Shown piece after piece: positions 18,201 through 32,213 of a stretch of 32,213 bases of DNA. The stretch's first letter is position 1; each line of letters opens with the position of its first letter. A program made the position numbers and the translations under genes. The DNA is from Bacteroidota bacterium (GTDB lineage: Bacteria > Bacteroidota > Bacteroidia > Bacteroidales > UBA4417), in the NCBI GenBank assembly GCA_013376995.1, contig JACAAZ010000018.1, forward strand, positions 75,558-107,770, read 5' to 3'. The notes below the pieces were generated by a model. That model was not told the DNA's origin, did no database searches, and saw nothing but the letters and a program-made list of their open reading frames with translations.

Positions 18201-19253
18201 TCAAGCTTTCTTCAGGGTAAATGCAAATGTAGAACCTATACCGGGAGCGGATCTCACGTTTACTGTCTGATCATGGGCTTCGATAATGTGCTTAACGATT
18301 GCAAGTCCAAGTCCCGATCCGCCACCTGAGCGGGCCCTGTGTTTATCTACCCTGTAGAACCTTTCAAACAACCGGCTGATGTGTTCTTCATCTATCCCAA
18401 GACCATTATCTGAAATTTCAACAAGGATATTTTCATCCATATGGTAAAAGCTAACCTTTGATCTGCCGTTCTCCCTACCATATTTGATCGAGTTATCGAC
18501 CAGGTTAATCATAACCTCTCTTATTCTTTCCTTATCAGCAAATACAATAATCTCCCCATAGTTATCATGAGCAAATATGAGATCAATATTTCGAGTTTTG
18601 GATTTTTGCTCCAGAAACTCAAAAACTTCCCTGGTAAGGCCTACGAGATCAAACCGCATCATTTCAGGCTTGGCCTCGCCGGATTCAAGTCGCGAAATAA
18701 TCTCCAAATCCTCAACAATGGTGATCATTCTTTCAATATTCTTTTGAGTTTTTTCAAGGTAGTCCCTATTGATTTCCGGATCATTTAAACCGCCATCCAA
18801 TAAGGTTAGTGTAAAACCCTGCAAGTTAAAGAGGGGAGTTTTCAATTCATGGGAAACATTAGCGAGAAATTCTCGCCTATAGGTTTCCATTTTTTTCAAT
18901 TCATCAATCTCTTCACCCCTGTCTTTTGCCCAACGTATAACCTGCTCATTGACTGAAGCGATCAAATCCCCCCTGGTAGAGGTTTTAAGTTCCTTTTTCC
19001 CTTCTTTTGTTCTTTTAAAGTTATGAATCGATTTATAAATCAATTTTATTTTATCATAAATGAATCTCTCCAGAAAATATTTGATCAAATAATATTGAGC
19101 CGCAAATAATACAGCTTCAGAAATCAATAACGAAAACCAGGGCATATCCATCCCGGTTGTCAATTCAACAATAACGATAGTGAGGTTTGACAGCAGCAAA
19201 ATTGCTCCTGACATAATTAATGCAAGAATCCTTGAATCTGATGTCCTAATCAT
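18201..19253 (-). CDS. phoR: PhoR-type phosphate sensor histidine kinase
   Basis: This is a 350-residue membrane kinase with two closely spaced transmembrane helices (about 10-31 and 40-60), a short linker and a HisKA domain with the phospho-acceptor H135 in NVSHELKTPL. The HATPase_c domain has its N box (NLVDNSIKYG), G1 (DNGLGID), F box (FERFYRVD) and G2 (GSGLGLAIVKHI). No sizeable periplasmic sensor domain is present, as expected of PhoR, which senses through PstSCAB/PhoU. The start codon overlaps the stop of the regulator gene (ATGA at 19250-19253), indicating translational coupling. The Pho assignment rests on the adjacent phoU and pst genes. Confidence 0.92.
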   Translation of the reverse strand: MIRTSDSRILALIMSGAILLLSNLTIVIVELTTGMDMPWFSLLISEAVLFAAQYYLIKYFLERFIYDKIKLIYKSIHNFKRTKEGKKELKTSTRGDLIASVNEQVIRWAKDRGEEIDELKKMETYRREFLANVSHELKTPLFNLQGFTLTLLDGGLNDPEINRDYLEKTQKNIERMITIVEDLEIISRLESGEAKPEMMRFDLVGLTREVFEFLEQKSKTRNIDLIFAHDNYGEIIVFADKERIREVMINLVDNSIKYGRENGRSKVSFYHMDENILVEISDNGLGIDEEHISRLFERFYRVDKHRARSGGGSGLGLAIVKHIIEAHDQTVNVRSAPGIGSTFAFTLKKA

Positions 19254-19933
19254 GGTACAAACTTGTAGCCAACCCCTTTAATAGTCCGTATATGTTCACT
19301 TTCTGTCTTCTCCCTTATTTTCCTGATATGAACATCAATCGTTCGTTCACCGACAATTACATCATCGTCCCAAACCCTTGAAAGGATTTCATCTCTTGTA
19401 AAGACTTTATCCGGTTTTGAAGCAAGCAGGCTTAGCATCTCAAATTCTTTACGCGCCAGTTGTATCTCTTTTCCTTCACGGTAGACTGTATATTTCTCCC
19501 GGTCAATCATCAGGTCTCCTGCTTCAAATACCATAGCGGATGACCTTGTTAGCGAGTGTCGGCGCAGAAGTGATTTGACTTTAGAAATCAAAACAGCTGG
19601 CTTGATGGGTTTTGTAAGATAATCATCTCCACCGGCATCAAGGCTCAGAATCTGGGTAAAATCCTCGCTCCTGGCAGTGAAGAATACTACCAAGGATTCC
19701 GCTAAAGCGGGGATCCGTTTTAATTCACGACAGGTTTCAATACCATCCATCTCAGGCATCATAACATCTAAAAGTATTAGATGAGGCCTTGATTTCTCTG
19801 CTTTTACTATAGCATCCTTACCATTATCAGCAGTGATGACCGAATATCCTTCCTTTCGCAGGTTATAACCTACAAAATCAAGAATATCAGATTCGTCATC
19901 TACCAATAGTATGGTGATTGATTCATTTTCCAT
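19250..19933 (-). CDS. phoB: PhoB-type OmpR-family response regulator
   Basis: This 227-residue regulator has a canonical receiver domain (D12/D13 acidic pair, phospho-acceptor D56 in LLDVMMP, T86, K108 in LTKP) and a C-terminal winged-helix domain (about 135-227) ending in RTIKGVGYKF. It lies between phoU (33 bp upstream) and phoR (4-bp overlap), so it is almost certainly the phosphate regulator. It is the best candidate for the protein binding the 11-bp direct repeats in front of pstS, the porin and the 31-kb operon. OmpR/PhoB-family dimers bind direct repeats with about this period. Confidence 0.92.
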   Translation of the reverse strand: MENESITILLVDDESDILDFVGYNLRKEGYSVITADNGKDAIVKAEKSRPHLILLDVMMPEMDGIETCRELKRIPALAESLVVFFTARSEDFTQILSLDAGGDDYLTKPIKPAVLISKVKSLLRRHSLTRSSAMVFEAGDLMIDREKYTVYREGKEIQLARKEFEMLSLLASKPDKVFTRDEILSRVWDDDVIVGERTIDVHIRKIREKTESEHIRTIKGVGYKFVP

Positions 19934-19966: not shown

Positions 19967-20635
19967 CTATTGCTTTTTCAATTTGCTGTGTTTTACAATA
20001 ATAGCATCAAAATAAAAAATAAGCTCTTCCGCTATATTCTTGATATGGTCTCCAGCCCTTTCCAATTTCCGTATGATTGAAAAAGTATCAAGAAGGAGTG
20101 CTGTATCATCAATATTTTCGCGTATGAGGGATGTAATTACCCCGAGACATTCATTGTTAATCTTGTCCAGTTTCTGGTCGAAACTGAAAAGTCCTTTAAT
20201 TTGCTTCCTGTCTCCGGTTTCGAAAGCATTCAGAGATTGCTGGATCATTGATTGAGCAAGGAAAAACATCTCTGGCACATGGATGCTGTCAATGTAACTT
20301 ACAGGCCAATCCTTATCACTTGCTTCAACACTTTTGGCAATAGAATTGGCATAATCGCCAATTCTTTCAAGATTATAATTAACCTTGAGAACTGAAAGCA
20401 GAAACCGAAGATCAATTGCCACAGGATTCTGGAGCATGATGATGTTCTCACAATCCATATCGATTTTGAGTTCGAATGCATCAACCATTTTCTCATTGGC
20501 GCGAACTTCACGCGCAAGATCCTTATCGTTATTGATCATTGATAAGCGGGCTTTTTCCATCTGGCTTCCGACAAGATTCCACATTTGGACCAAGTCGTCT
20601 TTCAATTGTGATAAGTTTGTTTCTAGGTGGCTCAT
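19967..20635 (-). CDS. phoU: Phosphate signalling protein PhoU
   Basis: This 222-residue all-helical cytoplasmic protein connects PstSCAB activity to PhoR and represses the Pho response when phosphate is ample. The two PhoU repeats each carry the E-(R/K)-x-x-D metal-binding signature: NLERIGDYANSIA in the first and LERAGDHIKNIAEE in the second. The length is standard. It is followed after 33 bp by the phoB-type gene and preceded by a 315-bp spacer after pstB. Confidence 0.95.
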   Translation of the reverse strand: MSHLETNLSQLKDDLVQMWNLVGSQMEKARLSMINNDKDLAREVRANEKMVDAFELKIDMDCENIIMLQNPVAIDLRFLLSVLKVNYNLERIGDYANSIAKSVEASDKDWPVSYIDSIHVPEMFFLAQSMIQQSLNAFETGDRKQIKGLFSFDQKLDKINNECLGVITSLIRENIDDTALLLDTFSIIRKLERAGDHIKNIAEELIFYFDAIIVKHSKLKKQ

Positions 20636-20950: not shown

Positions 20951-21703
20951 TCATCCAAACCTACCGGTAATATAATTCTGAGTTCTTTCCTGAGAAGGGT
21001 TAAGGAACATCTTCTGGGTTTTGTCATGCTCAATCAGTTCTCCCAGGTAAAAAAAGCCGGTGTAATCACTAATTCGGCCAGCCTGCTGAAGGTTATGAGT
21101 AACAATTATGATTGTAAATTCTTTTTTCAATTCAAAAATCAATTCTTCGATTTTGGCAGTAGAGATAGGGTCAAGCGCTGATGCAGGCTCATCCATGAGT
21201 ATCAGGCTTGGTTCAACAGCTAAAGCTCTTGCGATACATAAACGCTGTTGTTGTCCGCCCGAAATTGACATTGCTGATTTCTTAAGGTTGTCCTTAACTT
21301 CATCCCAAAGTGCAGCCTGCTTGAGTGAACGCTCAACTGTTTCATCCAGTGTTCTCCTGTCATTTACTCCATTCACCCTCAAACCGTAAGCAACATTTTC
21401 ATAGATTGATTTAGGGAAAGGATTGGGTTTCTGAAATACCATCCCAATGCTTTTCCTTATTTCATCAATCTTGACATCTTTCGCATAGATATCCTTGTCA
21501 TTCACAGTAATCTTCCCTTCAAGCTTGAAGTTACTGATCAGATCATTCATCCTGTTGAATAATCGCAGGAATGTTGATTTTCCGCAACCGGATGGGCCAA
21601 TCAATGCTGTAACAGAATTGGGTTCGAATGACATGTTGATTTCCTTTAGTGCAAGAAAATCACCATACCATACATTTATGTTTTTTGCTGAAGCTTGTAT
21701 CAT
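20951..21703 (-). CDS. pstB: Phosphate ABC transporter ATP-binding protein PstB
   Basis: This is the 250-residue cytoplasmic ATPase of the high-affinity phosphate importer. The Walker A motif GPSGCGKST is at residues 36-44. The PstB-specific NRMNDLI and [21 protein letters not shown]-loop region, the signature SISGGQQQR (146-154), Walker B LILMDEP (167-173), the D-loop SALDP and the H-switch in [10 protein letters not shown] are all present. The ATG start is canonical. Unusually for the operon, repeat-rich spacers flank it on both sides (239 and 315 bp). Confidence 0.97.
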
Positions 21704-21942
21704 GTATTCTTGTTCGAAATTAGGCGTTTGGCGTTAAAAAAGTTCGGTATTTAGAGGGTAAGGCTTACAATGTTAAGAGGGTTTGGCTATAATAGGATTC
21801 GACGTTAGTCAGTCAGGGTTAAGGTGTTTTGTATTATTTCTCAACTCAAAGTCACCTTTTTTTTCATTTCTGCATCTTACTACTTACATCCTGATTCCTT
21901 TTTCCTGCTTCCGGCTTCAGGTTTCCCTTTGTCTTTTTCCTT
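21704..21942. repeat. 239-bp repeat-like spacer between pstA and pstB
   Basis: No gene is seen. The left half has gttaagagggttt and aaaagttcgg words close to the gttagaagggttcgg words of the spacer on the other side of pstB. The right half is strongly pyrimidine-rich (ttcctttttcctgcttccgg, tttgtctttttcctttt). The two spacers share word order and polarity but differ in sequence, as expected of diverged copies of one element type. Confidence 0.6.
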
Positions 21943-22800
21943 TTAGTTCATCTTTACTTTTTTCCCGAGTCTACGTCTTAATATGCTTGCAAGTGTGTTG
22001 ATGATCAAGACGATGGAAATCAGAACAAAGGCCGTACCATATGCCATTGGGCGAGTTTTCTCCATATTAGTGCCACTGGTAGCCAGAACATACAAATGGT
22101 AAGGAAGCGCCATCACCTGATCGTGAATACTGGAAGGCAGTTTAGGAAGAAAATAAGCCGCTACGGTAAAGAGAATAGGTGCTGTTTCTCCTGAAACTCT
22201 CCCAATTGAAAGAATTAACCCTGTAATAATATTTGGGTAAGCCACAGGTAAAATAACTCTGTGAATTGTTTGCAATTTCGTTGCACCAAGAGCATAACTT
22301 CCTAAACGTAAAGAGTCCTCAACCGATTTCAATGCTTCTTCTGTAGTTCTTATAACAACTGGCAGTGTTAGTAATCCTAATGTTAAAGAGCCCGCTATAA
22401 TGGAATCTCCAAATTTCAGGTAATTGACGAACAAAGCCATTCCAAAAAGGCCAAAAACGATAGAAGGTATACCTGACAGGTTGTTTGTCATAAACCTAAT
22501 AAAAGTTTTTAGCCAAGAATCTTTGAGGTATTCATGTGTATATATTCCAGAGAGAACGCCAATAGGAAATGCAAATATCATACTTCCTAGAACCAGGTAT
22601 CCCGTTCCTACAATTGCTGGTAGTATACCACCTTTCGTCATGCCATCATCAGGCATTTTTGTAAGAAAATCCCAACTAATGACTGATATCCCTCTGTAAA
22701 TAATAAATCCCAGAATAGAAAAAAGGATTATTACCACCATAAGGCTGGTCAAGCCAAAAGTGCTGAAAGCAATTCTCTGTATAAGTTGTTTCTTTGTCAC
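21943..22800 (-). CDS. pstA: Phosphate ABC transporter permease PstA
   Basis: This 285-residue inner-membrane permease forms the phosphate channel with PstC. It shows the expected six hydrophobic helices, the GGILPAIVGT loop, GVLSGIYTHEYL, NNLSGIPSIVFGLFGMALF and the ABC-docking EAA-type loop EEALKSVEDSLRLGSYALGATKLQTIHRVILP. The length is normal. It starts 43 bp after pstC ends, consistent with co-transcription. Confidence 0.95.
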   Translation of the reverse strand: MTKKQLIQRIAFSTFGLTSLMVVIILFSILGFIIYRGISVISWDFLTKMPDDGMTKGGILPAIVGTGYLVLGSMIFAFPIGVLSGIYTHEYLKDSWLKTFIRFMTNNLSGIPSIVFGLFGMALFVNYLKFGDSIIAGSLTLGLLTLPVVIRTTEEALKSVEDSLRLGSYALGATKLQTIHRVILPVAYPNIITGLILSIGRVSGETAPILFTVAAYFLPKLPSSIHDQVMALPYHLYVLATSGTNMEKTRPMAYGTAFVLISIVLIINTLASILRRRLGKKVKMN

Positions 22801-22843
22801 GGTTGCTAATATCTATAGATGTCTGTTGACTTAGTTCAGGCTA

Positions 22844-24049
22844 TTATGCTCTTGATCGTTTGCCACTATTTTTAACAAATTCAACAGTCAGGTTGATAAT
22901 TATAGTAAAGAGAAACAGCACTATTCCAAGTGCAAAAAGGGCTTTAAAATGAAGTCCGCCATAGGACACTTCTCCAAGTTCAGCAGCAATCGTAGCTGGA
23001 ATTGTCCTGGTAGGAACAAGGAAAGAGTGAGGGATATTCGAAGCATTCCCGGTTACCATCAGAACTGCCATTGTTTCACCAATTGCGCGGCCAATACCTA
23101 GAATTATTGCTGTGGAAATACCAGATTTGGAATATGGTATCACAACCCTTACTAAAGTTTGCCAACGGGTGGCTCCAAGGGCTAAACTTGCTTCTTTTAG
23201 TGACTGAGGAGTTGTACGAAGTGCATCTTCAGTTATTGTAATAATGGTTGGCAGAGCCATGATCCCCAAAATAATGCTCCCTGCCAAAACAGTTTCGCCT
23301 ACTACCAGGTGAAATGTCTGTTGAATCATAGGGACTATAATTATCAAACCAAAGAATCCAAAAACAACCGAGGGAATGCCTGATAATAGTTCAATTACAG
23401 GTTTCAGGACATTACGAATCCTGATGTGAGCAACTTCAGCCATGAATATCGCTGTAGAAATTCCAAGAGGGATAGCAATAAGCAGCGCGCCCAGTGTAAC
23501 CATTAAGGTGCCTATTATCATTGGCCATATACCATAACTTGGAATTGGCTCGGAGGTAGGGTACCATTGTTTCCCGAAAATGAAATCATTAACGGAAATA
23601 TCCTTGACCTTGACATTGTGCCCACCAAATCCGACTGGTAATGATTTTGAAGATATATACATGATAGCATTAGGGTGCTGTATAATAAACTCACCCATTT
23701 TCTCATTAAGATGTTCAAGGTTTGAACCCAACTCCTCTTCTGAATAATAATCAGTTATATTGCTCGTTGTGAATAAGATAATACTATCATTATTACCACC
23801 CACCAACGACCAGTTGGTAATGTCCTGGTTGAAGATAGCTTTCAATTGCGTTGCGTTAAGTTCCTTTACAGGATTCTTCTTGCTAACTTCAATCACATAA
23901 TTCTTTTCAAGCGGCGAACTTTTAAACAAGCCAATTCCTTCCTTGAATAGAAAAATAATGATCAATATAACTGTCAAGCTGGTAATTGTGCTACTTGAGA
24001 AAAGCACCGCTTCAATAAACTTTTCAATTATCTTTCTGAACTTCTTCAT
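22844..24049 (-). CDS. pstC: Phosphate ABC transporter permease PstC with extra PstS-like periplasmic domain
   Basis: This is a 401-residue permease, about 100 longer than a minimal PstC. The transporter part is standard: TM1 at about 20-38, then from residue 152 DFIFGKQW, YGIWPMIIGTL, LLSGIPSVVFGFFGL and the docking loop EDALRTTPQSLKEASLALGATRWQTL. The excess is a periplasmic insert between TM1 and TM2 (about 48-150). Its first half aligns with PstS of this same operon: PstC 59-93 NP..K.L...QL..IF...I.NW..VGG....I.L matches PstS 110-146. The insert lacks the R and S-S-G-T phosphate ligands found in PstS (R149, S152-T155), so it probably does not bind phosphate in the PstS manner. The start keeps MKKFRK before TM1. 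Confidence 0.94.
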   Translation of the reverse strand: MKKFRKIIEKFIEAVLFSSSTITSLTVILIIIFLFKEGIGLFKSSPLEKNYVIEVSKKNPVKELNATQLKAIFNQDITNWSLVGGNNDSIILFTTSNITDYYSEEELGSNLEHLNEKMGEFIIQHPNAIMYISSKSLPVGFGGHNVKVKDISVNDFIFGKQWYPTSEPIPSYGIWPMIIGTLMVTLGALLIAIPLGISTAIFMAEVAHIRIRNVLKPVIELLSGIPSVVFGFFGLIIIVPMIQQTFHLVVGETVLAGSIILGIMALPTIITITEDALRTTPQSLKEASLALGATRWQTLVRVVIPYSKSGISTAIILGIGRAIGETMAVLMVTGNASNIPHSFLVPTRTIPATIAAELGEVSYGGLHFKALFALGIVLFLFTIIINLTVEFVKNSGKRSRA

Positions 24050-24257: not shown

Positions 24258-25082
24258 CTAATTCAGAGGTACATAACCTTCGTTGAGAACAATTTTCTGA
24301 CCTTCAGCAGAAAGAATAAACTTCACGTATGGGTTAACCATTTTTTCAGTTGAATTCAGGTAATAATAATAGAGCGGACGAGTAATAGGATAGGTTTTGT
24401 TCTTGGCAGTCTCAACACTTGGCAGATAGTAGGTTTTCCCTTTATCATAGGAAACCTGCAGAGGTTTGACGCTCTTCTCAATATAAGCTAATCCTACATA
24501 CCCTATTGCCCCTTTGGTCTGGCTAACAGATTGTACAATAGCGCCGGTTGCAGGCATGAGGAGCGCCGAAGATGCATAATTCTTTTTATTCAGCACGTGT
24601 TCTTTGAAGAATTCATAGGTACCGGAACTTGTTTCACGGGAGTACAGAACAATTGTCAGATCATCTCCACCTACTTCTTTCCAATTCTTGATTTTACCAG
24701 TGAAAATACCTTCGAGTTGTTCACGGGTAAGTTTTGTAACCTTATTTGCCGGGTTAACAATTACAGCTAAGGCATCATATGCAATGATAGTTTCCTTGAA
24801 AGCTTTGCCAGCATCATTCAACTTCATTTTCTCATCCAGTTTAAGGCTTCTGGATGCCTGGCAGATATCAGTCGTGCCATTTAACAAAGCTGATATACCA
24901 ACTCCTGAACCTCCACCAGTAACCATGATTGAGGATCCCGGGTTCTTTTTCATATATACTTCAGCTTCCTTCTGAGTTAAAGGCAGGACAGTATCACTTC
25001 CTTTAACCTTAAAACTTACTTTCTGGGCCTGCATATAAGGTGATATTAATGCAATAAGGGCCACGATTAATAATTTCTTCAT
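24258..25082 (-). CDS. pstS: Periplasmic phosphate-binding protein PstS
   Basis: This 274-residue protein has a cleavable signal peptide (MKKLLIVALIALISPYMQA, cut about residue 19). The phosphate-binding elements are visible: GSDTVLP (28-34), the GGGSGVG loop (56-62), TTDICQASR with D72, and lobe-2 SRETSSGTYEFF (R149, S152, S153, G154, T155). It captures phosphate in the periplasm and delivers it to PstCA. It is a compact PstS of the Bacteroidetes/PBP-like type. The Pho-box promoter directly upstream and the hairpin directly downstream fit strong, phosphate-regulated expression. Confidence 0.96.
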   Translation of the reverse strand: MKKLLIVALIALISPYMQAQKVSFKVKGSDTVLPLTQKEAEVYMKKNPGSSIMVTGGGSGVGISALLNGTTDICQASRSLKLDEKMKLNDAGKAFKETIIAYDALAVIVNPANKVTKLTREQLEGIFTGKIKNWKEVGGDDLTIVLYSRETSSGTYEFFKEHVLNKKNYASSALLMPATGAIVQSVSQTKGAIGYVGLAYIEKSVKPLQVSYDKGKTYYLPSVETAKNKTYPITRPLYYYYLNSTEKMVNPYVKFILSAEGQKIVLNEGYVPLN

Positions 25083-25098: not shown

Positions 25099-25156
25099 CA
25101 AATTTCGTTCGATGCTGTTATTTGAATCTTAACTGAATGTTAAGTAATTGTTAAGT
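25099..25156 (-). promoter_or_regulatory. Pho-box promoter of pstS
   Basis: Read 5'-3' on the minus strand there are three hexamers, ACTTAA, ACTTAA and AGTTAA, at exact 11-bp period (plus-strand starts 25151, 25140 and 25129). They are followed by 22 bp and then GAAATTTG (25099-25106), a 7-of-8 match to TAnnTTTG. The predicted start site is about 10 nt before the pstS ATG. The repeat type (TTAA cores, 11-bp period) resembles PhoB/PhoP sites of other phyla, and the same layout recurs in front of three other genes in the window. Confidence 0.7.
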
Positions 25157-25160
25157 CAGT

Positions 25161-26510
25161 TTAGAAACGGTATTGAACACGGAGTGTCAACACGTTGTCT
25201 TTCAAATCTTTGGTATAATCATTAGTTGAGTTTGTGCCCTTGATGCCAGTCTTTTCATTCTTTACCATTTCATAATAGGCAGAGAATTTAACCTGGGAGT
25301 TAAATTTATAATTCCAACCTAAACCCAGAGTGGTATACTTGATATCAGCATTACTCAGGCCTGTACTTTTACCAGCAGCTGTTTTCGTCTTGATATCAGT
25401 TCCTGCAACTTTAGTATTCGGATCCATCCAATCATATTTCAATACTAACTGATGTTTGCTCTGACCAATGTTTTGAATGAGATAAATATAACCGCCACTA
25501 ACATTTCTAAGATAAGTATCATAATCAGGAGCTGTTGATGATGAAATACTAGTGTTGCTGGAACTACCACCTGGTTGTTTACCAACAATGTATTCAGCAC
25601 GTACACTTGAAATACCGATTGCGGAAAAGTACGATGCCTGAAAATCTACTCCGAAATAGGATCTTTTGGCAAATTCATACTTGTTGCCGGCAGTGGAATC
25701 GACTTTAAATCCATTAATCATTGCATTCGTCAGAGTATCATCAACCACGGATGCCAAGGAATATACCTTTTTTGTTCCCTGGAATACACCACCATTATAG
25801 TAGGATAATCCTAATCCAATCTTGAAAGTTTCGGCTTTATTGGATTTGGCTACACCAAGGTGACCAATAAAATCCTTATGCTTATCAAATTCGCCGTTGA
25901 TTCCATTACCACTGAACAATCCAGCATCCAGTTTTATCCATTCGAAACGGCTGCCTTTTTTTGGCTGAAGTGTGATCATCGATCCTAAGTCACGCTCACC
26001 AGGAAAAAGTACCTGGAAGATTCGAGCCCTTTCTGGTGTCTCACGAACAGATGATGAATAGGTAATTTCGTAGCCGAAAGGCCTGTTAAAAACGCCGGTC
26101 GTCAATGTAACAAACTGGAACCAAGGTTCCTTAACGGCTACATAGGCATCCTTAATTCCAACGCCTTTCTCGGTTGCATCCAATTGGAGTACATATTGTG
26201 AAAATTCATTATCATAAGTAAACTTTATCCTGCCTCTTCTTATCGCAAAACGATTGTCAGAATATTTTGGAAAGTTTCCACCTGAATAAGTCGTGATGGC
26301 TCCAATTGTATCGGCTAATTGCCATTGTGCCTGCATATAACCGGTAACCTTAATTCTCTTAAGGAGATCGATATCAGATTTAGCATTTTCAATTTTGCCA
26401 TTCAAAGTATCAACTACCTCAGGAATCATAGGGGTTTCTACTTCCTGAGCAATAGAAAATTTGACGCAAAATACCAGCACTGCCATTGCAGTCAAAATAC
26501 GAGAGTTCAT
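25161..26510 (-). CDS. Porin_O_P (OprO/OprP-family) outer-membrane porin
   Basis: This outer-membrane beta-barrel porin is related to phosphate/polyphosphate-selective OprP/OprO. I start it at the ATG at 26510 (449 residues), which gives MNSRILTAMAVLVFCVKFSIAQ, a clean signal peptide. The frame stays open 17 codons further upstream, but that would place the start upstream of the predicted promoter -7 box. A short helical segment (about 24-52, IENAKSDIDLLKRIK) precedes the barrel, as in OprP. Alternating aromatic beta strands follow and the protein ends in VQYRF, the terminal-aromatic signal for outer-membrane insertion. It lies immediately upstream of pstS and has its own Pho-box promoter, supporting a phosphate-uptake role; anion selectivity itself is inferred. 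Confidence 0.88.
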   Translation of the reverse strand: MNSRILTAMAVLVFCVKFSIAQEVETPMIPEVVDTLNGKIENAKSDIDLLKRIKVTGYMQAQWQLADTIGAITTYSGGNFPKYSDNRFAIRRGRIKFTYDNEFSQYVLQLDATEKGVGIKDAYVAVKEPWFQFVTLTTGVFNRPFGYEITYSSSVRETPERARIFQVLFPGERDLGSMITLQPKKGSRFEWIKLDAGLFSGNGINGEFDKHKDFIGHLGVAKSNKAETFKIGLGLSYYNGGVFQGTKKVYSLASVVDDTLTNAMINGFKVDSTAGNKYEFAKRSYFGVDFQASYFSAIGISSVRAEYIVGKQPGGSSSNTSISSSTAPDYDTYLRNVSGGYIYLIQNIGQSKHQLVLKYDWMDPNTKVAGTDIKTKTAAGKSTGLSNADIKYTTLGLGWNYKFNSQVKFSAYYEMVKNEKTGIKGTNSTNDYTKDLKDNVLTLRVQYRF

Positions 26511-26550
26511 TTTTGATGTCATAAATGTTTTGTTAATTGATTTCTGACTG

Positions 26551-26608
26551 CAAATGAACAACCTCTATCTTATCCCAATATTAATGTCATGTTATGTAAA
26601 TATTAAGT
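26551..26608 (-). promoter_or_regulatory. Pho-box promoter of the porin gene
   Basis: Minus strand: ACTTAA, ACATAA and CATTAA at exact 11-bp period (plus-strand starts 26603, 26592 and 26581). Then come 22 bp and TTCATTTG (26551-26558), a 7-of-8 match to TAnnTTTG. The predicted start site is about 35 nt before the ATG at 26510. Layout and spacing are identical to those of the pstS promoter. Confidence 0.68.
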
Positions 26609-26831
26609 ATAACTAAGAAAAAAATACTATTTGCTTGATTTACCATTACTTAGCGCTTAATCCTCAAGAAGGAAAGCCGACTAATTTCTAACTTAATATT
26701 AAAAACTTACACATATTATATTTAGCTGCATTGTTGACTTTCTTAACATTAACATAATGCTCTCTGGATCCAAATAATAATTATTATTACTGAATTATGA
26801 ATAATTGAAAATGTAAAATGCCAATACTCAT
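26609..26831. other. AT-rich spacer upstream of the porin promoter
   Basis: No gene is seen between the GH13 stop and the porin Pho box. The stretch is AT-rich. It contains a 16-bp all-AT palindrome AATAATAATTATTATT (26773-26788) and a TTAACATTAACATAATG run near 26742-26758. The TTAACA words are 6 bp apart, not 11, and are not followed by a fitting -7 box, so they are not called as a Pho box. Confidence 0.5.
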
Positions 26832-26836
26832 TTACA
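26812..26836 (-). terminator. Weak terminator-like hairpin at the GH13 stop
   Basis: On the minus strand TGTAAATG (26829-26836) pairs with CATTTTACA (26812-26820), leaving one bulged base, across an 8-nt loop, followed by TTTTC. The stem is AT-rich and overlaps the stop codon. It may end the three-gene operon weakly. Confidence 0.3.
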
Positions 26837-28445
26837 ATGAATAGATACATGCTTCAAATGGCAACAAGCTGATTACCGATCCTTCAAATATGTAAGGCCT
26901 GGAGTCATGACTTGAGTGAATACGTGTTAATTTCTGATTTTCTTCAAGCCTGATCATCTTTGACAGGAAGGAAAAATTTAGAATGATCAAAAACCTGGTA
27001 TCCTCAAATATCCTCATGTACGCCATTACGTCTCTTGTTTCATGGAACAAAGGCATCCATTCTCCAAATTGAAGAGCTTGATTCCCTTTTCTTAAATCAA
27101 TAAGTCTACGGTAATAATTAAGCAAGGAATCCTGCTCATTAGTTTGCAGCTTAACATTGCGCATTATGTAGTCTTTATTGATCCGAAGCCAGGGCCTGTT
27201 ATCAGAGAATCCTGCATATTTTTCAGTATTCCATTGCATCGGCGTCCTTGACCTATCCCTTCCAACATAAAATGGCCAATATTTCCTACCGATCGGATCA
27301 ATAAGCTCTCTCCTTGGGATCTTTGTATTCCGCATCCCGATTTCATCACCATAATAAAGAAAAGGCGTACCCCGGAGTGTTAACAACATAACAGCTATCA
27401 GCCTAGCTTTTTTATCGGGGAACAATGTAAAACTTCCCCGGTTGATATAGCGGTTCAGATCATGATTTGAAAAGACAATACTAGGCCATCCTGTGGTTGA
27501 CAGGTTCCAATACCATGAGGATATACATTTCAAATATTGCTTTGCACTCCATGGCCGAAAGAAGATCGAAAAATCGAAAGACAGGTGGAGGAGTTTATTC
27601 TTTCTACCAATATAACTTGCTGATATAAAAGGGTCTCCAGGAGGTAATGTATAGATCTCTCCAACAAGCATTCGATCATTATATTTATCGACAAGCTTAC
27701 GAAGTTTGCGAACAATCTTGTAGGATTTCGGCCTGTTTCGGGTATATGTTTTTGACTGAATGAATGGGAAACCTGAAAACAAAGGAGAATTCCTTAACTT
27801 CTTATCTTTAACAACCATGTTTATGACATCCAGCCTGAAACCGTCAACCCCTAAGTCCAGCCAAAACCGGACCTGCTCAAGGAATTCCTTTTGCATATCC
27901 TTATTTCTCCAATTGAGGTCAGGTTGAAAGCTGAAAAAAGAATGATAATAGAAATGGCCGGTTTCTGAATTCAGTTTCCAGGCAGAACCTCCTACAGCAG
28001 ACTTCCAGTTATTAGGTACAGATTTGTTCTCTCCAGGATGCCACAGATACCAATCACGTTTGGGATTATCATGCGAAGCTGACGATTCAATGAACCAGCT
28101 ATGCTGCTCAGATGTGTGATTCATGACAAGGTCAAGGATAACTCTTATATTTCGTTCATGGGCCTCGGTTAGAAGCTGAAGGAAATCATCCATATTTCCC
28201 AGCCTGGGATCTATCGCCTGGTAATTAGAAATATCATATCCAAAATCCTGAAATGGAGATTCATATATTGGGGATAGCCAGATAGCATCAATACCAAGGT
28301 CAACCAGGTAATCCAATTTTAATATGATCCCTTTCAGATCGCCATAACCATCACCATTCGAGTCAAAGAAACTCAATGGGCAAATTTGATAGATTATCCC
28401 GTGTTTCCACCATATCCACCTTTCGCTTTTGGGTGAACTATTCAT
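26832..28445 (-). CDS. GH13 alpha-glucosidase/oligo-1,6-glucosidase-type glycoside hydrolase
   Basis: This 537-residue cytoplasmic alpha-amylase-family enzyme (no signal peptide) acts on alpha-1,4/1,6-glucosides. The start is set at ATG 28445, overlapping the end of the glycosyltransferase gene by 8 bp. The frame runs 51 codons further upstream inside that gene, but the extra residues are unlike the family. The family N-terminus WWKHGIIYQICPLSFFDSNGD begins at residue 12. Conserved regions: calcium loop DSNGDGYGDL, region I DLVMNH (105-110), region V QPDLNW (174-179), region II GFRLDV with nucleophile D206, region III GEIY with acid/base E263, and region IV FSNHD with D329. It is the last gene of the operon. 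The exact substrate cannot be fixed; a hydrolase or transglycosidase working on the product of the fused glycosyltransferase is plausible. Confidence 0.9.
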   Translation of the reverse strand: MNSSPKSERWIWWKHGIIYQICPLSFFDSNGDGYGDLKGIILKLDYLVDLGIDAIWLSPIYESPFQDFGYDISNYQAIDPRLGNMDDFLQLLTEAHERNIRVILDLVMNHTSEQHSWFIESSASHDNPKRDWYLWHPGENKSVPNNWKSAVGGSAWKLNSETGHFYYHSFFSFQPDLNWRNKDMQKEFLEQVRFWLDLGVDGFRLDVINMVVKDKKLRNSPLFSGFPFIQSKTYTRNRPKSYKIVRKLRKLVDKYNDRMLVGEIYTLPPGDPFISASYIGRKNKLLHLSFDFSIFFRPWSAKQYLKCISSWYWNLSTTGWPSIVFSNHDLNRYINRGSFTLFPDKKARLIAVMLLTLRGTPFLYYGDEIGMRNTKIPRRELIDPIGRKYWPFYVGRDRSRTPMQWNTEKYAGFSDNRPWLRINKDYIMRNVKLQTNEQDSLLNYYRRLIDLRKGNQALQFGEWMPLFHETRDVMAYMRIFEDTRFLIILNFSFLSKMIRLEENQKLTRIHSSHDSRPYIFEGSVISLLPFEACIYSL

Positions 28446-31119
28446 CAGAACGTAAAGCAGTATTTGGAAGTCCAAGGTCTGACATAAGCTGCCAAATGAT
28501 GCGATCAGCCGTATAATCCTTTGCCCTGACACTGGCTGCCTTCCTGAATATTTTTTGCATTTCCTTGCTTTTGAGAAATTCCAGAATACGGGAAGCAAAA
28601 TTCCCTTGATTTTTCACAATGAAACCGTTAATGCCATTCTGGATAATATCTTTTGGGCCCTTTGAATTGTAAGCAATTACTGGTAAGCCACAACTTAATG
28701 CCTCGAGCACTGCGCAACTAAAGGTGTCAAACCTGGAAGGCAAGAGCAGCAGGTCAGCTGCACTGTATATCTCAGCAAGGTTAGATGGTGAAACCCAGCC
28801 AAGGTAGGTAGCATCAGGCAATAATTTTCTTAAATCCTCTTCTGCCGGACCTTCACCTGCAATGACCATCTTAACATCAGGCAACTCTTCCCTGATTGTC
28901 CTTAGAATCTGCGGCAGTTCCATAACACCTTTTTCCAGGCTAATCCTTCCTGCAAAAAGCAGGACAGGATCAGAATCCTCCAATCCAAACAACTTAGCCT
29001 TTGAACTCTTTGTTGGTTTGAACCAAGCTTCTGCCCAATGTGCAGTAAGGAAAACGGAATCTGAATTGATTTCCATCTTTTTCCCTGTCATCCATTTATG
29101 TTGATCTTTATTCAGAACGAATACACCATCAAACTTCTTGTAAAATGCTCTGCTTATGCGGCGGAATCTTTCCGACATTTGTTTGTCCATCTGAAGTACT
29201 TTCTGACCGAAAGTTATCCAATCCGTATGAATGTAGAAGTAGGCTGGAACTGTATAAGCGTGTTTCAGGTAAAGTGCAGAAAGCCCCATCGGGCCTTCTG
29301 TTGAACTCATAATCCTGTCATATCCACCCTCCATGAATAACCTGTTCAATTCAAGAAAATCTGGAATACGAAGTGTTTGTTGTTTATAAAAGGAAAGGCT
29401 GAATTCTGAGACCGGGCGCAGGACGACCAGGTTCTTTTCGGGTTTTATAGTACCTGAGCATATGACCAGATCGATAGGAAGGTTCTGCTGCTGGATTTGC
29501 TTCAGCATCGACTTCAGCACACTTGACACACCATTTGAATCCCCGTAAGTATCAGTTAACCACATCAATCGTTTTGGATGCTGGAGGTAATTTATTCTTT
29601 CTGAAAAATCATTCAACAGAGGCCTTGCCTTGTACATTACATGTGCGGCTGTAAAATGTGCACTTAGCATGACAGTAGCAGCAAGAAAGGGAAAAGAGAG
29701 TCCATCCAGGAATTTGGGAATATCAGGGCTTAAAATATCCGGCCTGGACTTGTCCAACCTATTTCGTGATCCGGAAATATAACCTCTTATCTCGCTGGGG
29801 AATTCAAGTTGATTCAGTAGGTCATTAAGATTCAAATGTTCAAGTAATTCCTTAGATTTGGAGGAATCAAGTTTGGATTGTAACCTGGAAGTGAGTACAC
29901 TTACCAATTGCTGGTATACTGAATTGATTGAACCTGTAAATGAACTAATCATTGATTCAGCTTCGCTATTGAAAGCATCTGCTATTTTCCTGGTTTCATC
30001 GAAAACCGGCTTATAAACGCGAGGTGTGAACCATCTTTTGGTAAAATGCGGGTAATTTCCTGTAAAACATTCATGGAACTGGTTAATAAAGCTCATTGTG
30101 ACTTTATGCTTCCTCAATTCTGCAAACCCATTCGAAATAAGAAGAGCAATTATTTTATCGTTGATGGTTCCTTTGTGGAGCAGAATACGCATAAGTCCCG
30201 GATCTTTGCCGTTAATAGCAATCTGGCATAAATAATCCAGGAACGTAACAGTCATTTTCTCGTATGAGTGGTGCGAGCCAAATGGGATCATTTTTCCTTC
30301 TCTAATTGCCTGAAGAGCCAACAAAGAGACTGGTGAAGAAATTCTTTTTTCATCCAGGTCCGGCACATACAAATTTGTACCTGTTAATCCACAAAAGATT
30401 CCCATATGACTATCGGAGCCGCCAGAAATACTTTTTTTGTAAGGATCCTTACAAAACATCCCTGGGTTTAGACCGGTTTGCGTCGACAGCATGTCAATTT
30501 TTTCGTTCGTCAAACCTTCTACCCACTTGTTTACAAGAAGGTTCTGCCAGGTGTCACGCTGCCCGTTGATTACCTCGAACCTTTCAAACAGCAAGGCCAT
30601 ATTATCAAAGAACTCAAGGGGAGGTCTGCCGTTTGACTTGTAATAGTAAAGAGGGTGTGCCCAAATGGTGGGAATATCCTCAGAAACACAATATTCGAGA
30701 AATGCATATATATTTTTCCTAAACTTGTTCAGTTTTATCTCCTGTGAAGGAGTAAAACCATAGGTAAGAACATGAATACCTGTTTCAAAATCAGGTACAA
30801 AACAGCTGAATTCGGCTCCAACTAAAACATCGAAACCTTTATCGAGAAGTTCGAAGCAGGACCGGGCATTGTTGTGGTTAGTTATGGTATAAGCATCCGA
30901 ACCATGCTTTTTTAGGGTGTGTATTAACTGATCTGTTGGAAGCCACGTTTCAGGTACATTCAGTATACGCCCCATCAATTCATCCGGCACATTGCTGTTA
31001 TGGTCATGGCAATGAAGGTCGATACGCAATAATTCATTCGAAGGATGTACTTCCTTGTGGTTCACCTGAAATTTTGAAAGTTCAGATTGCAATAGCATCT
31101 GAAAGGATTGATTTTCCAT
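28438..31119 (-). CDS. Fused PHP phosphoesterase-GT4 glycosyltransferase
   Basis: This is a large two-enzyme fusion of 893 residues from ATG 31119. A TTG at 31149 would add 10 residues and overlap the regulator stop as TTGA, so it is a real alternative (numbering below counts from that TTG). N-terminal PHP domain (about 40-300): metal-binding pattern DLHCHDH (44-50), NHNNA (91-95), GAEFS with E113, WAHP with H165 and GGSDSH with D246/H248. A helical linker (about 380-480) carries a hydrophobic stretch (about 484-506) that could touch the membrane. C-terminal GT4 domain (about 525-890): TDTYGDSNGV, LLFAGRISLEKGV (R735, K740) and FDTFSCAVLEAL with E816. It has no signal peptide. PHP domains hydrolyse phosphoesters, and GT4 enzymes transfer sugars from nucleotide donors. 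The pairing in one chain is suggestive, but substrates are unknown. Confidence 0.87.
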   Translation of the reverse strand: MENQSFQMLLQSELSKFQVNHKEVHPSNELLRIDLHCHDHNSNVPDELMGRILNVPETWLPTDQLIHTLKKHGSDAYTITNHNNARSCFELLDKGFDVLVGAEFSCFVPDFETGIHVLTYGFTPSQEIKLNKFRKNIYAFLEYCVSEDIPTIWAHPLYYYKSNGRPPLEFFDNMALLFERFEVINGQRDTWQNLLVNKWVEGLTNEKIDMLSTQTGLNPGMFCKDPYKKSISGGSDSHMGIFCGLTGTNLYVPDLDEKRISSPVSLLALQAIREGKMIPFGSHHSYEKMTVTFLDYLCQIAINGKDPGLMRILLHKGTINDKIIALLISNGFAELRKHKVTMSFINQFHECFTGNYPHFTKRWFTPRVYKPVFDETRKIADAFNSEAESMISSFTGSINSVYQQLVSVLTSRLQSKLDSSKSKELLEHLNLNDLLNQLEFPSEIRGYISGSRNRLDKSRPDILSPDIPKFLDGLSFPFLAATVMLSAHFTAAHVMYKARPLLNDFSERINYLQHPKRLMWLTDTYGDSNGVSSVLKSMLKQIQQQNLPIDLVICSGTIKPEKNLVVLRPVSEFSLSFYKQQTLRIPDFLELNRLFMEGGYDRIMSSTEGPMGLSALYLKHAYTVPAYFYIHTDWITFGQKVLQMDKQMSERFRRISRAFYKKFDGVFVLNKDQHKWMTGKKMEINSDSVFLTAHWAEAWFKPTKSSKAKLFGLEDSDPVLLFAGRISLEKGVMELPQILRTIREELPDVKMVIAGEGPAEEDLRKLLPDATYLGWVSPSNLAEIYSAADLLLLPSRFDTFSCAVLEALSCGLPVIAYNSKGPKDIIQNGINGFIVKNQGNFASRILEFLKSKEMQKIFRKAASVRAKDYTADRIIWQLMSDLGLPNTALRSDE

Positions 31120-31145
31120 ATTTTGTGTGTATGATCCTATCCTGA

Positions 31146-31832
31146 TCAAGAAGTAACGAATGAATATCCAACTCCTTTCATCGTTTGGATGAAATTTTTA
31201 CCAATCTTATCTCTGAGCTTGGAAATATATACATCGAGAATTCTATCATCATTGGACTTTTGATCGCCCCAAATCTGATTTGAGATTTCCTTTCTCGAAA
31301 AGACTCTTCTAGGTTCGGAAGCTAAAAAGATCAACAATTCAAATTCTCTTTTGGCAAGGTCAATAACCCTATTATCCTTCCTTACAACATATCCTTCAAC
31401 GTCAATGGATAAACCTGGGAAATCAAGGATTTCTCTATAACTTGTCCATGTATCAATGCGACGCAAGTATCTCTTGATCTGCATAAGAAACAGTTCAGAG
31501 GAAATATCCCTGTTCAGAAATCCATCTACCACCATATTCAGCGCTTCATGCTGGATTGCATCTTCATACGTGGCTGTGTGTATTAAAATAATTGTATCAT
31601 TAAAAAGTGGATTACTTCGGAGTTGCAACACTACTTTAGCACCTGAATACTCAGCATTCATCATATCAATAAGGATGATGTGGGGCCGGAATACAATAGC
31701 CTTATTTTTCACATCAGTTCCATTGGTAGCAGTTAAAACCTGGTACCCATTATCTAATAGCAACGACTCAAACAAATTTAGTGAATCAATATCATAATCG
31801 GCAAGGAGTATCCGGAGTGCTTCATTTTTCAT
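31146..31832 (-). CDS. Atypical OmpR-family response regulator
   Basis: This 228-residue protein has a PhoB-like winged-helix domain (about 135-228, ending TMKGVGYSFV) and a receiver domain with altered key positions. The putative phospho-acceptor D56 and T86 remain. Compared with the phoB product here, the second acidic residue D13 is Y13 and the conserved K108-P109 is R108-D109. Such changes usually weaken or abolish normal phospho-signalling. No histidine kinase adjoins it. It heads a three-gene operon, overlapping or nearly abutting the fused glycosyltransferase gene, and is preceded by a Pho-box promoter, so its activity may be set by how much is made. Its DNA-binding half resembles that of PhoB, so it may bind similar repeats. 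Confidence 0.88.
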   Translation of the reverse strand: MKNEALRILLADYDIDSLNLFESLLLDNGYQVLTATNGTDVKNKAIVFRPHIILIDMMNAEYSGAKVVLQLRSNPLFNDTIILIHTATYEDAIQHEALNMVVDGFLNRDISSELFLMQIKRYLRRIDTWTSYREILDFPGLSIDVEGYVVRKDNRVIDLAKREFELLIFLASEPRRVFSRKEISNQIWGDQKSNDDRILDVYISKLRDKIGKNFIQTMKGVGYSFVTS

Positions 31833-31859
31833 TATACAGAGTAAATTATTAGATAGTTA

Positions 31860-31917
31860 CAAAATTACCCTCTCAATGTAAATTGAATATTAATAGAATG
31901 TTATGTTAGTTTTTATG
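31860..31917 (-). promoter_or_regulatory. Pho-box promoter of the regulator/PHP-GT4/GH13 operon
   Basis: Minus strand: CATAAA, ACATAA and TATTAA at exact 11-bp period (plus-strand starts 31912, 31901 and 31890). Then come 22 bp and TAATTTTG (31860-31867), a perfect TAnnTTTG. The predicted start site is about 20 nt upstream of the regulator ATG. Period and spacing match the pstS and porin promoters exactly. Confidence 0.65.
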
Positions 31918-31932
31918 AATGGAGTACAACGG

Positions 31933-32001
31933 TATTAACAAAATGAATATAGACACTTAATATATCGCTAACACGATTTGAGAATATGGGAAATATCTTT
32001 G
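31933..32001 (+). promoter_or_regulatory. Divergent Pho-box promoter for the plus-strand gene
   Basis: Plus strand: TATTAA (31933), TGAATA (31944), ACTTAA (31955) and CGCTAA (31966) fall on an 11-bp grid. They are followed by 22 bp and TATCTTTG (31994-32001), a perfect TAnnTTTG. The repeats are less regular than in the other three sites, but the spacing to the -7 box is the same. It points away from the operon promoter; the two repeat blocks are only 15 bp apart. The implied 5' leader is about 145 nt. Confidence 0.5.
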
Positions 32002-32150: not shown

Positions 32151-32213
32151 ATGAAAAAACAAAAACACTTATTTCTGTGGATTGTCGGGGCTTTTTTGAT
32201 GCTAATCAGCATC
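32151..32213 (+). CDS. Start of an exported protein (cut by the window edge)
   Basis: Twenty-one codons are visible before the window ends. They read MKKQKHLFLWIV then GAFLMLISI: a basic start (KKQK) followed by an unbroken hydrophobic core, a Sec signal peptide or lipoprotein signal. In Bacteroidetes such starts are common for TonB-dependent receptors and other envelope proteins, but the mature part is missing and the family cannot be named. A Pho-box-like promoter points at it, so a phosphate-scavenging envelope protein is a reasonable guess. Confidence 0.6.
   Translation, partial: MKKQKHLFLWIVGAFLMLISI

Follow-up and report, generated by a model that had tools for sequence, protein, structure and literature searches.

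A fixed-spacing, four-repeat candidate Pho box at the pst locus of a Bacteroidota genome

The pst locus and its promoter repeats

The DNA analyzed here, called the window throughout, is a stretch of 32,213 bp corresponding to positions 75558-107770 of contig C10 in the 5.05-Mb draft genome (43 contigs) of a Bacteroidota bacterium. Its right-hand part carries, all on the minus strand, phoR, phoB, phoU, pstB, pstA, pstC, pstS and genes for a porin, a GH13 enzyme, a glycosyltransferase and an atypical OmpR-family regulator. Our subject is a repeat array shared by three promoters of this locus, which we propose to be an operator of PhoB. The candidate activator is the phoB-type OmpR-family response regulator at 19250-19933, whose best NCBIfam match is TIGR02154 (206.8 bits, cut-off 296.2); the phoR-type sensor histidine kinase lies at 18201-19253, and its best NCBIfam matches, PnpS and PhoR, are both below cut-off. 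Next come phoU (19967-20635), the block at 20951-24049 composed of pstB (20951-21703), pstA (21943-22800) and pstC (22844-24049), and pstS (24258-25082). These are followed by an outer-membrane porin gene of 453 aa (25161-26522), a name that we take from an earlier sequence-only reading of this DNA and from a presumed OprP type; its product had no match in Pfam or NCBIfam. The glycosyltransferase (28438-31149; 903 aa, with GT4-type domains in its C-terminal part) directly follows the atypical regulator (31146-31832) in the order of transcription. A divergent gene on the plus strand is cut after 21 codons, since its window segment (32151-32213) reaches the contig end.

The promoters of pstS (25099-25156), the porin (26551-26608) and the regulator (31860-31917), all on the minus strand, contain direct repeats with a TAA core, at a period of 11 bp and a fixed distance from a TTTG-type -7 box. 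At pstS the repeats occupy 25146-25156, 25135-25145, 25124-25134 and 25113-25123, followed by a 6-bp spacer and the -7 octamer GAAATTTG (25099-25106), and the ATG lies 16 nt past the octamer. The porin promoter has four repeats (26565-26608) and the octamer TTCATTTG (26551-26558), 28 nt before the ATG. The regulator promoter, which is the probable Pho-box promoter of the whole regulator-glycosyltransferase-GH13 gene run, has a perfect octamer, TAATTTTG (31860-31867), 27 nt before the ATG. The fourth TAA is separated from the octamer by 11 bp (from TTTG by 15 bp), the third by 22 bp. TAnnTTTG has been described as the sigma-A -7 box, the octamer lying at -12 to -5 (PMC9723704).

To quantify the layout, we gave every TTTG word of the window (447 on the two strands together) a slot score with a maximum of 12, counting matches to four TAA slots at positions fixed relative to TTTG. 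The pstS and porin promoters score 12/12 and the regulator promoter 10/12, its slots 2 and 3 being perfect and slots 1 and 4 each one base off. No other TTTG word exceeds 8, and a score of exactly 8 is found in four of the 447, among them the site that the sequence-only reading had listed as a fourth member, before the divergent plus-strand gene (31933-32001; octamer TATCTTTG at 31994-32001; two of four slots filled). That reading had offered the TAnnTTTG boxes of ppnP, the LytTR gene and the BatA-type gene as an internal control. The control holds, with slot scores between 1 and 6 of 12 at all 17 TAnnTTTG octamers found elsewhere in the window.

A 58-bp matrix placed the same three sites first. 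Of the 23 upstream regions of pstS and porin genes on which it was refined, 21 were retained as members, every one of them from a relative; the iteration was seeded with three promoters, including that of pstS in the window. Its three best sites in the window fall exactly at 25099-25156 (score 37.0), 26551-26608 (25.5) and 31860-31917 (12.8), the next non-overlapping site reaching 1.1. In 200 simulated windows with matched local dinucleotide make-up, 12.8 was reached by one and 25.5 by none. The pstS, porin and regulator sites are thus beyond chance, and the plus-strand site is not: with a matrix score of -7.3 and a slot score tied with the background, we set it aside as a Pho box. The four stretches do share the 11-bp spacing and an octamer starting 22 bp past the last hexamer, as had been described, with the qualification that one of the four hexamers in the plus-strand stretch, TGAATA, is not TTAA-like. 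Support for a Pho-type operator with an 11-bp period and fixed spacing to the -7 box is strong at pstS and the porin and moderate at the regulator operon; at the divergent gene such an operator is not supported.

Conservation of the layout and genome scans

We mapped the pst genes in 20 stretches from relatives and took the regions upstream of pstS and the porin. A phoB gene at least 70% identical accompanies the pst genes in 11 of these 20 stretches, several of which are short contigs. The gapless alignment of the 20 relatives' promoters has an invariant or nearly invariant TAA at columns 4, 15 and 26, T and A at columns 37 and 39, and TTT at columns 55-57. Because TAA is conserved at columns 4, 15, 26 and 37, four repeats are conserved rather than three; the repeat that had been counted as the last, the third, does end 22 bp before the octamer, and the fourth is present 11 bp further on.

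For a wider comparison we used 80 named Bacteroidota pstS loci, seven of them training records. Three consecutive TAA words at a period of 11 occur 130 times, in 48 loci, whereas periods 7-10 and 12-15 give 7-38 occurrences. The stricter triple TTAA is found at period 11 in 19 places spread over 13 loci, of which 14 places and 10 loci remain when the training records are left out; counted on both strands, the word being palindromic, it occurs 38 times at period 11 versus 0-4 times at other periods. Four-slot arrays number 121 at period 11 and 12-26 at six other periods. Among these 121 arrays, TTTG follows the fourth TAA at 15 bp in 43 and at 26 bp, that is, one repeat off, in 16; other distances have 0-4.

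Enough upstream DNA for slot scoring was present at 73 of the loci, five of them training records. Scores of at least 10 were obtained in 48 loci, at least 11 in 34, and 12 in 15; without the training records, 43 of 68 loci still reach 10. At the same threshold the reversed layout gave one locus, six other periods (8, 9, 10, 12, 13 and 14) none, and nine other offsets 0-2. Records from Rufibacter (Cytophagales), Flavihumibacter (Chitinophagales) and Tannerella (Bacteroidales) are among the positive loci, so that at least three orders have the layout. It also prefers particular genes: of the 64 sense-strand sites with scores of at least 10, 36 are found where a porin gene begins and 17 where pstS does (53/64), compared with eight such sites on the opposite strand and one on the reversed sequence. 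Of the 11 leftover sites, four precede weak porin relatives (E 8e-4 to 2e-8), one lies ~240 bp before pstS, one precedes a response-regulator-like frame, one a small CarbopepD_reg gene and one a similar small gene (by eye); three have no explanation. The expectation that the layout would be enriched near phosphate genes is therefore borne out across relatives, and not in this genome alone, as its own count below shows.

The 43 non-training sites refine the definition. A C follows TAA in 36 and 26 of them at units 1 and 2, and in 16 and 17 at units 3 and 4. With TTTG fixed by the search, the full octamer TAnnTTTG, as proposed by the sequence-only reading, is present in only 14 of the 43; its first base, which was not selected for, is T in 36. 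After TTTG comes C or T in 42 sites and then A in 30, a pattern that a genuine -7 box would be expected to have. The refined definition is four YTTAAY-like units at 11 bp, 11 bp from the last TAA, and then TnnnTTTG.

Scans of whole genomes were less uniform. A sequence-only model of the 20 aligned sites was run on the window's own genome, with 150 of 3090 first-look candidates scored; pstS ranked first (E 2.6e-6), the porin second (E 0.005) and the regulator promoter ninth (E 1.2). Of the 15 matches of this model, those outside the window mostly fell short on full-length score, an exception being C3:156391 (score 9.7, octamer TACATTTG), upstream of an apparent secreted protein. When the layout was searched as a fixed pattern in this genome and 15 others of its genus (16 in all), 39 matches were found versus 10 for the reversed pattern. 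Judged by position, 13 of the 39 are at pstS and seven at the porin, a largely circular result because sites of these kinds had gone into the pattern. Another seven stand before the gene of a small secreted CarbopepD_reg protein, which was outside the training, and the other 12 are at about the control level.

With a strict pattern applied to the whole class (149 genomes), 10 matches turned up, spread over nine genomes, versus none for the control. Three of the matches precede phoB-like genes (48-51% identity to the window's PhoB), two precede OprP-like porins (47-49% to the window's porin) and one is the present pstS; by eye, one further match precedes another beta-barrel-like gene and one a TolC-like gene, which leaves two matches with no gene assigned. 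Found in just 9/149 genomes, the strict word is not universal, and the slot score is more informative. That the array stands before the three phoB-like genes themselves (L201, L202 and L208, in two genomes belonging to a different family) suggests autoregulation by PhoB.

Several other genes carry the layout. The small CarbopepD_reg protein is a secreted, single-domain protein of 116-117 aa (L032:4713-5066 and L184-L198), and the array lies just upstream of its gene in all 8/8 same-genus genomes that have it, with scores of 11-12 of 12. Among seven more distant homologues, an array with a score of 10-11 is present in five, at 36-262 bp from the aligned start; a sixth has a score of 9 and the seventh no array. 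This genome yielded no match to the protein at E up to 1e-15. A layout match with two mismatches (G000:C5:36556-36612) stands before a gene whose product, judged by eye, has the beginning of a CarbopepD_reg-containing TonB-dependent receptor; this gene could be one more target of phosphate control. A four-by-11 layout with another unit (CTAAT or TTTAAT) and a TTTG box is found before genes that by eye are TolC-like outer-membrane genes (G000:C40:229025-229081 and L207); the contig C40 site, in this genome, directly follows an OmpR-family regulator gene and its apparent kinase. Finally, in one relative a metallophosphoesterase and a glycosyltransferase adjoin the pst locus (L032:2191-4215) and resemble the PlcP/glycosyltransferase pair of lipid remodelling.

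Proposed control by PhoB and its alternatives

The sequence layout, its conservation and its association with particular genes are observed. From them we infer that PhoB is the binder, that phosphate is the signal, and where transcription starts. The layout has what is expected of a Pho box: direct repeats of 11 bp in at least two units, a preference for phosphate-uptake genes and a fixed distance to the core promoter. A PhoB/PhoP-type regulator is encoded inside the pst locus itself (19250-19933), under a name that leans on this context, its score being below the curated cut-off. We consider it highly probable that the arrays are PhoB operators that activate sigma-A-type promoters of pstS and the porin, and probably also of the regulator.

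PhoR phosphorylates PhoB when phosphate is scarce, as is known for the family, and would do so here. PhoB dimers would then bind head to tail on the four 11-bp repeats (consensus approximately YTTAACAWTWA), with one unit per monomer. If the octamer is taken as -12 to -5, the TAA cores would fall at approximately -59 to -24, so that the array would replace the -33 element and keep the RNA polymerase with sigma-A at a -7 box that is weak (TnnnTTTGYA) and placed exactly 11 bp past the last TAA. The predicted outcome is that pstS and the porin are switched on, and less certainly the regulator, glycosyltransferase and GH13 genes.

Some of the observations weigh against this interpretation. The window's PhoB scores below the curated NCBIfam cut-offs. 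Within this genome the pattern with up to two mismatches has no excess over its reversed control (6 versus 6 matches, three of the former being the window's own sites); the regulator promoter has the ninth rank noted above, and no phosphatase gene was recognized downstream of the own-genome matches that were inspected. Among the 73 pstS loci, six reach a score of 10 on the opposite strand, and 25 score below 10 on the sense strand, many gut Bacteroidales among them; several of these low-scoring loci have a changed unit at the same spacing, and others have nothing. Three low-scoring Parabacteroides records look like such a changed unit (TGTAAC or TGAAAC), yet two other Parabacteroides records score 10. 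Moreover, the CTAAT/TTTAAT version before TolC-like genes implies that the layout alone is no proof of PhoB.

One alternative concerns only the site at 31860-31917, which might be a chance resemblance, with Pho control limited to pstS and the porin. Its E of 1.2 in the genome scan and its two imperfect slots would fit such a resemblance, whereas its third rank in the window, its exact distance, its perfect octamer close to the ATG and the single simulated window in 200 that scored as high argue for a genuine site; on balance we regard chance as rather unlikely here. A search of 60 relatives (E up to 1e-60) gave two orthologues of the glycosyltransferase. The best sense-strand array in the locus lies 37 bp from the aligned start, upstream, in one (9 of 12) and 51 bp in the other (8 of 12), which is weak, suggestive backing for Pho control of the operon. 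In Flavobacterium johnsoniae, PlcP and a glycosyltransferase encoded in the phoBR cluster increase when phosphate is low and have been assigned to lipid remodelling (PMC8115612), and in marine bacteria plcP often adjoins a glycosyltransferase gene, with putative Pho boxes (PMC4796936).

It is also conceivable that the arrays are genuine OmpR-family operators bound by a regulator other than PhoB, such as the atypical one at 31146-31832 or another Trans_reg_C protein. This genome contains nine Trans_reg_C matches, and on contig C40 the same layout with another unit stands directly after a different OmpR-family gene and apparent kinase. The atypical regulator is a poor candidate for the binder, however. 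Its receiver has ADY where PhoB has VDD and NRD where PhoB has TKP, respectively an Asp-to-Tyr change in the acid pocket and a Lys-to-Arg change at the conserved lysine; its recognition helix departs from that of PhoB as well (RILDVYISK for RTIDVHIRK). Outside this genome, in 20 relatives of which 12 are of the same genus (E up to 1e-40), it has three matches at 38-40% identity, two of which are the relatives' phoB genes themselves, and yet the array is conserved there. Being the regulator that travels with pst, PhoB fits better, and phoB-like genes carry the array in the three class-wide matches. The atypical regulator is more likely a target than a binder, to judge from these sequence features, and we hold binding by another regulator to be distinctly improbable.

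That the repeats are no operator but A/T-rich promoter DNA in helical phase, of an UP-element-like or bending kind, is very improbable: upstream DNA at the window's promoters is A/T-rich, but the period is sharply 11 (0/73 loci with a score of at least 10 at each of the six other periods), the sites are directional (48/73 loci versus 6 on the opposite strand), a C is kept after TAA in units 1 and 2 (36 and 26 of 43), and the sites stand at phosphate genes.

Returning to activation by PhoB, its extension beyond this locus is more tentative. Four 11-bp units, with 11 bp between the last TAA and the -7 octamer, may constitute a general format of activation by OmpR-family regulators on Bacteroidota sigma-A promoters, with a unit word that varies (TTAAC for PhoB, CTAAT or TTTAAT for the efflux type). 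The PhoB version might also control nonclassical targets, namely a glycosyltransferase operon with a possible role in replacing phospholipids by glycolipids, and the CarbopepD_reg protein described above. We consider this broader proposal a possibility, with the odds somewhat against it.

Comparison with known Pho systems

In Escherichia coli, the Pho operator replaces the -35 element and lies ~10 bp from the -10 element. The E. coli Pho box is built of direct repeat units of 11 nt, to which PhoB binds head to tail, with the core CTGTCAT (PMC4415409). Direct repeats of 11 nt are thus common to both systems. As described for E. coli, the unit is CTGTCAT and two units define the box, whereas here the unit is YTTAAC, four are conserved, and the partner is the Bacteroidota -7 box TAnnTTTG. 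The PhoP box of Bacillus subtilis, with about four TTAACA repeats at a period of 11 bp, is nearly identical in unit, period, number and position, although phylum and promoter type differ.

Riemerella anatipestifer, of the class Flavobacteriia, belongs to the same phylum as the window organism. The DAP-seq motif of its PhoP has TTTAACA as its most conserved bases, close to the unit found here, and was likened by its authors to the E. coli ArcA motif; the accessible text of that report gives no four-repeat definition, no fixed distance to a -7 box, and no focus on pst or porin genes (PMC9603813). Because this motif is in print, the novelty of the unit itself is lowered. In gel shifts, PhoB of Bacteroides fragilis binds to a fragment of 512 bp from the pst promoter, and the protein is required for pst (pstC) expression; PhoB-dependent pst genes would thus be a shared trait; a box sequence is not given in the text accessible for that study (PMC3547664). 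Computed Pho boxes have been placed before plcP and glycosyltransferase genes of marine bacteria, with a Dokdonia strain among the isolates, in the context of low-phosphorus lipid remodelling; the accessible text does not state their sequence, repeat number or promoter spacing, or which non-Proteobacteria strains have one (PMC4796936). In the main text of open papers we found no defined Pho box for Bacteroidota and no four-repeat, fixed-spacing definition.

The operator definition proposed here is precise and testable for phosphate control and can be scanned for in any Bacteroidota genome, and the spacing of an activator array relative to the unusual -7 box of the phylum may help in predicting other regulons. 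Relative to the published accounts as far as they are accessible, PhoB binding in the phylum and the TTTAACA unit were known before, and what appears to be new is the definition by four repeats at a fixed spacing.

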